In this document: piece after piece, positions 60,069 to 62,595 of the stretch
Layout of the letters: the number at the start of each line of letters is the position of its first letter
How positions within the stretch are numbered: the first letter of the stretch is position 1
Translations under genes and position numbers: made by a program
Notes under the pieces: model-generated
What the model saw: only the letters and a program-made list of their open reading frames with translations
What the model was told of the DNA's origin: nothing
Database searches by the model: none
Source of the DNA: Leptodesmis sichuanensis A121
Lineage (GTDB): Bacteria > Cyanobacteriota > Cyanobacteriia > Leptolyngbyales > Leptolyngbyaceae
DNA: 64,000 nucleotides
Direction of reading: 5' to 3'
Assembly: GCF_021379005.1 (NCBI RefSeq)
Contig: NZ_CP075171.1
Location: forward strand, 3,720,001 to 3,784,000

Positions 60069-60719
60069 ATGACCTCCTACGCTTCTTCGACGGCTCGAGC
60101 TGAGATGACTGAATTGCGGCGTTTGCGTGGCTTATTGCCACCAGAGTTGCAAAGTTGGGTTTCGGTTGAGGCGACCACTGCCGTCAATCCCCCCTTAATT
60201 ACCTCAGAAGAAATTGGTAAAGATGAGGTGGAGGTGCTGATTGATATGGTGAAGTGGGAGCAGTTGGCGACAGACCAGCGAAATCTCCTCTTCTGGCACG
60301 AAGTGGGCCGCATCCAGAACGACACGATTCCCAGGGATGGTTGGGAAATGGCAGCCCTGGCGATCGGCTTAGGCGGTGCAGTCGGTGAACTCTGGGTGCA
60401 GGATGGCCTGTTGCTGGTTCTGGCCCTGGCGCTATGTGGTGTTTCGGGCTGGCGCTTGTGGCAGAAGAATAACAACGAGAAGACCGTAAAGGATTTGATT
60501 GAGGCCGACGAACGGGCGATCGCGCTGGCCACTCGATTTGGCTACAGTTTGCCCAATGCCTACAAGAGCCTGGGAAGCGCTCTGAAGGTGCTGATTGAAC
60601 AATCGCCCAAGAAGAAACTGCGATCCAGATATGAGTCCCGATTAGATGCGCTCAAGAAGAGTGCAGCCAAAGCCAAAGCCCGAATGAAAGAGCAGCAACC
60701 TGTTGATGAAGCGTATTAG
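60069..60719 (+). CDS. DUF3318 family membrane protein
   Basis: 216 residues, a cyanobacterial family: AEMTELRRLRGLLPPELQSW, LLFWHEVGRIQND, two hydrophobic segments (about 97-112 and 115-132) and a basic, helical C-terminus (SRYESRLDALKKSAAKAKAR). A HE-V motif (WHEVGR) recalls metal sites but a zincin HExxH is not complete. Function unknown. It precedes the DnaA-box cluster. Confidence 0.82.
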   Translation: MTSYASSTARAEMTELRRLRGLLPPELQSWVSVEATTAVNPPLITSEEIGKDEVEVLIDMVKWEQLATDQRNLLFWHEVGRIQNDTIPRDGWEMAALAIGLGGAVGELWVQDGLLLVLALALCGVSGWRLWQKNNNEKTVKDLIEADERAIALATRFGYSLPNAYKSLGSALKVLIEQSPKKKLRSRYESRLDALKKSAAKAKARMKEQQPVDEAY

Positions 60720-60805: not shown

Positions 60806-60889
60806 TTATCCATCAGGTTTTCCACAGGAGATTGCAGTCTTTTACAGGTTTTCCACAGGTTTTCCCAGGTTTTCCACAGAGTGGGGAAA
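60806..60889. promoter_or_regulatory. Cluster of DnaA boxes (TTTTCCACA)
   Basis: Three perfect copies of TTTTCCACA, the DnaA box reported for cyanobacterial origins, lie at 60818-60826, 60849-60857 and 60870-60878 in the same orientation. Degenerate boxes sit between them (TTATCCATC at 60806, TTTTACAGG at 60840, TTTTCCCAG at 60860), giving spacings near one or three helical turns. Located between the convergent DUF3318 and guaA genes. Candidate replication origin or DnaA-binding control site. Confidence 0.6.
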
Positions 60890-60927
60890 CAAAAAAGCAA
60901 GGAGTGAATGCTTTCTCTCCATTGCTC

Positions 60928-60955
60928 GTAGAGACATTCCGGCGGAACGTCTCTA
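60928..60955. repeat. GTAGAG...TTCCGGCGGAA...CTCTA palindromic repeat, copy 3
   Basis: GTAGAGACATTCC and GGAACGTCTCTA arms with the core GGC; nearly the same as copy 1 at 6532-6560. It could end the guaA transcript, whose stop codon is 30 nt away. Confidence 0.75.
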
Positions 60956-60984
60956 ACTGGAAACAACAGATTTAAAGCATCACC

Positions 60985-62595
60985 CTATTCCCACTCGATC
61001 GTTCCCGGTGGCTTGGAGGTAATGTCATACACCACCCGATTCACGCCGCGCACTTCATTGACAATGCGATTGGCGATGGTTTCCAGCAAATCGTAGGGAA
61101 CTCGTGCCCAGTCTGCGGTCATGCCATCTTCACTGGAGACAAAGCGCAGGACGATCGGGTAAGCATAAGTGCGTTGATCACCCATTACCCCCACACTGCG
61201 AATTGGTAATAGAACCGCAAATGCTTGCCAGAGGTCATGATAAGTTCCAGAGCGGTTGATTTCCTGGCGTACAATAAAATCGGCATCCCGCAGAATATCC
61301 AACCGTTCATCGGTGACTTCTCCCAGGATACGAATCGCTAAACCGGGACCAGGGAAGGGATGACGGTTGACGATTTCTTCGGGTAGGCCGATCGATCGGC
61401 CTACCTTACGAACTTCATCCTTAAACAGCTTGCGTAGAGGCTCAACTAGCTTGAAGCAGAGGTCTTTCGGCAACCCACCGACATTGTGATGGCTCTTGAT
61501 CTTGACGGCCACCCGTTCTCCCGTTTTGGGATCGACGTTGGTATCGGCAGATTCAATCACATCCGGATACAGCGTGCCCTGTGCCAGGTAATCAAATGGC
61601 CCCAGACGCCGGGATTCTTCCTCGAAGACACGAATGAACTCATGACCAATGCGTTTGCGTTTTTCCTCTGGGTCGGTGACACCTGCGATCGCCTTGAGAA
61701 ATCGCTCCCGTGCGTTCACATACTCTACAGGAATGTGGAATTGTTCCCGGAACAGCTTCACCAACCGTTCCGGTTCCAGTTTCCGCATAAAGCCTTGGTC
61801 AATGAACATGCAGGTAAGTTGATCGCCGATCGCCTCATGCAATAGAAAGGCCAGCGTGGAAGAATCCACTCCTCCAGATAACGCCAGCAGCACCCGCTTA
61901 TCGCCGACTTTGGCGCGGATTTCTCGAATCGATTCTTCTACAAAGGCGGCGGTTGTCCAGGTGGGTTCGCAGTCGCAGATGTGATAGACAAAGTTGCGGA
62001 TGAGCGCCTGTCCACCAACAGAATGCACCACTTCCGGGTGGAATTGCACACCGTACAGCTTTTTGTCGTGATGGGCGATCGCGGCGTTGGGCGTATTCTC
62101 GGTATGAGCCAGAATTTCAAATCCATCGGGAAGGCGGGTAACAGAATCCCCGTGGCTCATCCACATGGTGCTGCCGTCTTCCACGTTGGTCAGCAGATCG
62201 GTGGGGTCGTCAATCGTGAGGGAAGCTTTACCATATTCGCCGCGTTCGGATTGTTCTACCTCACCTCCTAGTTGCTGCACCATCAGTTGCATGCCATAGC
62301 ACACGCCCAGCACAGGAATTCCCAGTGCCCAGATTTCTGGGTCGCAATGAGGCGCACCCTCGCTGTAGACGGAACTGGGGCCACCGGACAAAATAATGCC
62401 TTTGGGATTGAGTTGTCGCAGTTGTTCTGCCGTGGTGCGATAGGACAGTACTTCCGAGTAGACCTGAGTTTCCCGAATGCGGCGGGCAATCAGTTCTGAG
62501 TATTGCGAACCAAAGTCCAGAATGACGACCATCTGACGGTTCAGATGTGGCATGGAATCAGTTGAAGTAAGCGGTTGAGTTTGTAGAGTCACCAC
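60985..62595 (-). CDS. guaA: GMP synthase (glutamine-hydrolysing)
   Basis: 536 residues. Converts XMP to GMP. N-terminal class I glutamine amidotransferase ([34 protein letters not shown] with the nucleophile Cys), ATP-pyrophosphatase domain with the P-loop [11 protein letters not shown], and the C-terminal dimerisation domain ending [20 protein letters not shown] start at 62595; a later ATG (62553) is possible. Downstream of cbiD on the same strand with a 98-nt gap, a pairing seen in other cyanobacteria. Confidence 0.97.

Follow-up and report, generated by a model that had tools for sequence, protein, structure and literature searches.

This study addressed the question of what a tight group of DnaA boxes is doing beside guaA in the cyanobacterium Leptodesmis sichuanensis A121. 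The window, meaning the whole stretch of 64 kb that was analysed, covers bases 3,720,001–3,784,000 of the single-contig genome of 5,348,817 bp. The original prediction offered an origin, a DnaA-titrating locus and a replication-linked control site as explanations. The features around the boxes, in window positions, are as follows.

60069..60719, + strand: gene for a DUF3318 protein (Pfam PF11780), convergent with guaA
60818..60826, + strand: perfect DnaA box 1, TTTTCCACA (exact match; aligned with relatives)
60840..60868, + strand: two box-like sites, TTTTACAGG at 60840 and TTTTCCCAG at 60860, each with three mismatches and without support as boxes
60849..60857, + strand: perfect DnaA box 2 (exact match and relatives' alignment), 31 nt or three helical turns after box 1
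60870..60878, + strand: perfect DnaA box 3 (exact match and relatives' alignment), 21 nt or two helical turns after box 2
60891..60925, − strand: likely guaA intrinsic terminator, a GCAATGGAG/CTCCTTGC stem followed by a T run (hairpin scan)
60985..62595, − strand: guaA, GMP synthase (Pfam GATase and GMP_synt_C), with its 3' end towards the array

The box array and its surroundings

The array occupies the intergenic gap between the convergent genes for the DUF3318 protein (+) and guaA (−); its place beside guaA and between convergent genes had been predicted. The three perfect co-oriented TTTTCCACA boxes, starting at 60818, 60849 and 60870 and all on the + strand, were likewise confirmed. They lie within 61 bp and 482 kb from oriC, are the only exact copies in the 64-kb window, and form a triple found at a single place in the window and in none of 100 dinucleotide shuffles. 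The locus thus has several boxes in ~100 bp, off oriC and beyond chance, which is what characterizes a DnaA-box cluster. Two details of the original prediction had to be corrected. The predicted start-to-start distances of 9–12 nt gave way to spacings of 31 and 21 nt between the perfect boxes, and the "at least three degenerate boxes" were not confirmed: the sites at 60840 and 60860 have three mismatches each, and no other + site had two or fewer. These two sites were rejected as boxes because they match no better than chance and the equivalent linker positions are unconserved in relatives.

The hairpin between guaA and the boxes has a predicted energy of −12.6 kcal/mol, with a T run from ~94 nt past guaA in the hairpin scan; its exact ends were set by eye. 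A combined promoter and terminator scan gave no match, and its loop limit of 8 passes over this hairpin. No credible Rfam match was found in the 58–64 kb part of the window. A palindrome-like repeat (GTAGAGACATTCCGGCGGAACGTCTCTAAC) at 60929–60957, adjoining guaA, resembles a dispersed cyanobacterial repeat.

Relation to the chromosomal origin

The dnaN gene was located at 4,262,626 with dnaA on the opposite side, which places dnaA–oriC–dnaN at ~4262.3–4262.5 kb, 482 kb from the guaA array. Five exact TTTTCCACA boxes and several one-mismatch boxes lie in opposed groups between dnaA and dnaN, and the 9-mer of the guaA array is identical to these boxes by exact match. The lowest 50-bp GC content was 0.40 at the guaA site versus 0.24 at oriC, and no AT-rich unwinding element was found beside the guaA-site boxes in the 50-bp GC windows. 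The GC skew, computed from sampled stretches of the genome, was weak and irregular genome-wide (arm means of 0.012 and 0.000, P = 0.15) although dnaA–oriC–dnaN is intact, and flipped clearly only at dnaA–dnaN, from −0.037 to +0.073; it neither helps nor hurts an origin reading of the guaA site.

A second replication origin at guaA would be in keeping with the density of perfect DnaA boxes, but the full dnaA–oriC–dnaN arrangement lies elsewhere, the AT-rich element is absent, and the boxes, which run in one direction, show neither the opposed grouping nor the 11-nt/9-nt pair signature that oriC has in this class. The guaA site shares the TTTTCCACA box with the cyanobacterial oriC (PMC4674748) and differs in having one box direction and no AT-rich element, in place of opposed box groups and AT-rich DNA. 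The origin reading was therefore abandoned as extremely improbable.

In one relative, a stretch far from dnaN (G055:C1 2841765–2841847) carries an oriC-like signature, namely a close pair with a second pair ~54–65 nt on, and this box signature is shared by G200:C1 4233336–4233418. Given its distance from dnaN in G055 and its presence in G200 too, oriC and dnaN are probably separated in these genomes.

Similar arrays within the genome

Exact TTTTCCACA boxes numbered 64 genome-wide, versus 36 for the reversed-pattern control. The pair pattern (TTTTCCMCA, a gap of 1–14, TTTCCMCA) matched at four places in 5.35 Mb (the guaA site, oriC, 1581.7 kb and 4707.9 kb), and the reversed control matched at none. 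When 60 array neighbourhoods were clustered by their flanking genes, most strong arrays fell at a few gene neighbourhoods, the recurrent ones being the 3' end of guaA, the region upstream of DUF2811, the vicinity of an RpoD-type sigma gene with ppk, and oriC. Neighbouring genes were identified by Pfam, except ppk, which was named by inspecting its sequence. Judged by sequence, the guaA array belongs to a small group of such arrays carried by the chromosome.

The array at 1581681–1581801 of the genome (G000:C1, L033) lies upstream of hemJ, with sites on one strand every ~10.7 nt, and almost opposite oriC, whose antipode is at ~1588 kb. At the DUF2811 (PF10929) arrays, the next gene encodes HemJ (UPF0093) or a PD-(D/E)XK nuclease. 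In most families examined, the array is ~200–550 nt upstream of DUF2811 (4707.8–4707.9 kb/L034 here; L086, L093, L121, L358 and others). DUF2811 itself is a small protein of ~75 aa with a ribbon-helix-helix look by eye, and is a possible target or partner of DnaA. Three loci (L117, L124 and L128) have an additional array beside the RpoD-type sigma gene, with ppk on the other side in two.

Recurrence in relatives

The original prediction had made recurrence of the arrangement in relatives the test of its titrating or control-site reading. Sampling 50 genomes of the class by guaA itself, we found at least three perfect boxes at the guaA 3' flank in 17 genomes from nine families. In 16 of these the boxes are no more than 500 nt from the stop codon, and in the seventeenth, G040, they are at 544 nt; the other 33 had no exact box at the guaA 3' flank. 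This recurrence supports the titrating or control-site reading at the level of sequence.

The layouts at guaA were [0,20,41], [0,21,42], [0,31,52] and [0,11,31,53]; that of the window, [0,31,52], is common to G005, G013, G022 and G030. All 39 adjacent spacings in the guaA set were 11, 20–22 or 31 nt, i.e., whole helical turns, and mostly 20–22 nt. Spacings of 10–23 nt are selected by construction at the pattern-selected loci; only spacings above 23 nt, and those of the guaA set, are free of this bias. Sequence outside the boxes was only 34–37% identical among relatives, and this low linker identity is the informative figure, since box identity is 100% there by construction. Since the linkers have diverged to this degree, conservation of the boxes is not due to general regional similarity.

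On the guaA tree, the array was scattered over several branches and required at least seven changes; a single gain followed by losses may account for this distribution. Class-wide, the pattern matched in 253 of 291 genomes, with very few matches for the reversed control.

Relation to oriC distance and neighbouring genes

In complete genomes, array-bearing guaA is separated from oriC by ~3 to 40% of the chromosome, according to hand calculations that are approximate where the chromosome length was rounded. The window genome (9%) pointed to an oriC-proximal, datA-like titration site, as did G005, G022, G057 and G058; this idea was rejected on the evidence of G051, G029, G033 and G006. Distance to oriC is therefore not the conserved property.

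Across 28 loci, the gene facing guaA beyond the array comes from 18 different families. An obligatory link to guaA, which looked strong over these loci, was contradicted in Microcoleaceae/Phormidium, where five loci have CDF > array and guaA was not found nearby (L284, L305, L321, L328 and L338; two of the five are cut off or start close to the array). The order is CDF > array < guaA in Trichocoleus and an Oscillatoriaceae MAG, and CDF > array < hemJ in Symploca. This turnover on the guaA or the CDF side indicates that the array outlives either neighbour.

In several genomes, including that of the window, the stretch from guaA to the boxes contains a hairpin terminator. Terminators at −10 kcal/mol were not clearly rarer in array-bearing genomes, with 8 of 29 against 22 of 48, and the difference was not significant. 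A DnaA roadblock serving as the guaA terminator is disfavoured, since hairpin terminators already precede the boxes in several genomes. Together with the persistence of the array beyond its neighbours, this position of the hairpin speaks for a function that resides in the array and against a role specific to guaA.

Association with DnaA

The cyanobacterial DnaA box, to which the boxes of the array are identical, has been footprinted with DnaA domain IV from Cyanothece (PMC4674748), and DnaA binding in cyanobacterial cells has been examined at oriC by ChIP-qPCR (PMC6478999, PMC7198777). The window genome encodes an intact DnaA including the DNA-binding domain, as identified by Pfam. Pattern matches were present in 226 of 261 near-complete genomes and absent from three 99%-complete genomes without a real DnaA (G165, G171 and G177), whose DnaA matches were spurious only (E of 4e-5 to 8e-4). 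The probability that all three would lack arrays under random assignment was 0.0022, by a hand calculation uncorrected for phylogeny; this correlation bears on DnaA binding indirectly.

In Picosynechococcus sp. PCC 7117, a relative of PCC 7002, the only three-box cluster is an array [0,20,41] near a YggT-like gene (L330, ~1817.6 kb). This cluster does not resemble oriC, and the genome showed no other grouping of exact boxes of the oriC type. The dnaA gene is dispensable in PCC 7002 (PMC7198777). The PCC 7117 array may have another role, such as in transcription, or may be a relic.

Interpretation

On balance, we lean towards reading the guaA site as a DnaA-box array outside oriC that would act as a DnaA sink or reservoir like the DBCs of Bacillus subtilis, a reading in which occupancy and titration are inferred. 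More broadly, cyanobacteria probably have fixed sites outside the origin where DnaA is held or used. In the proposed mechanism, the three perfect boxes, two or three turns apart on one helix face, would lie in a gap that is probably little transcribed; DnaA would dock on the three same-face sites and be held there, and the array would form a permanent sink or reservoir and so contribute to setting the amount of DnaA that is free to act at oriC. The observed support consists of the boxes with their phasing, the fact that they are conserved while the linkers have diverged, and their absence from dnaA-less genomes, as well as the independence of the array from oriC distance and from either neighbouring gene. 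Three observations weigh against a sink. An array at guaA is missing in 33 of the 50 genomes and is thus not essential at that place; the common orientation and two-turn spacing are stricter than a simple sink would need; and pure titration does not explain a three-box array in PCC 7117, which has no oriC-like cluster, given the dispensability of dnaA in PCC 7002.

The arrays could instead be DnaA-responsive controls of guaA or the facing gene, acting as a roadblock or terminator or through an antisense transcript and coupling GMP supply to replication. That the boxes oppose guaA in 28 loci, mostly within 550 nt of the stop, despite the changing facing gene agrees with this idea, and promoter control is plausible for the arrays upstream of DUF2811, hemJ and PD-(D/E)XK genes. 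Roadblocks formed by DnaA have been described in E. coli, according to PMC11317965, which cites Schaefer and Messer 1988. However, the reported E. coli guaB site was unbound in ChIP-seq (PMC11317965), the Microcoleaceae/Phormidium arrays are kept beside CDF, and in several genomes the boxes are separated from guaA by intrinsic terminators, so that we consider such control unlikely. Recognition of TTTTCCACA in two-turn phase by a protein other than DnaA would suit the usual gap of 11–13 bp here, as against 2–3 bp in E. coli double DnaA boxes (PMC11317965), but it is hard to reconcile with the presence of the identical 9-mer in this genome's own oriC and with the lack of arrays in the three dnaA-less complete genomes, and it seems quite improbable.

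The sink or reservoir reading has a possible extension, which we put forward tentatively and with some doubt: the widespread phased arrays off oriC, and not oriC, could be the kept target of DnaA in lineages where DnaA is no longer needed for starting replication. PCC 7117, with its three-box array and no oriC-like cluster, is the case in point. If true, this would answer what DnaA still does where replication no longer needs it. The arrays are targets for the question raised in PMC7198777 on what role DnaA has once replication in a species is independent of it, and the recurrent set provides exact targets for investigating how the number of chromosomes under replication is limited in polyploid cyanobacteria. 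No earlier account of DnaA-box arrays off oriC in cyanobacteria was found in the open-access literature searched.

Among known systems, the E. coli datA and DARS loci need IHF or Fis. The datA, DARS1 and DARS2 loci resemble the guaA array as non-coding DnaA-box loci with conserved boxes and variable spacers (PMC4585315), but their relative distance to oriC is kept, whereas that of the guaA array ranges from ~3 to 40%; the conserved oriC distance that defines datA was thus not found here. In the double DnaA box of the E. coli DnaA regulon, closely spaced boxes are bound together, and some cyanobacterial arrays likewise contain 11-nt pairs; the gap there is 2–3 bp (PMC11317965), in contrast to mostly 11–13 bp in the guaA array. 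The B. subtilis DBCs belong to another phylum, whereas the cyanobacterial arrays are strict sets of three perfect co-oriented boxes, mostly 20–22 nt apart, in many families. Both are DnaA-box clusters off oriC. In B. subtilis, removal of six DBCs leads to early initiation, which a single DBC at various locations partly relieves, so that DBC activity does not depend on one fixed position (PMC5295017); the varied positions of the cyanobacterial array fit this position independence.
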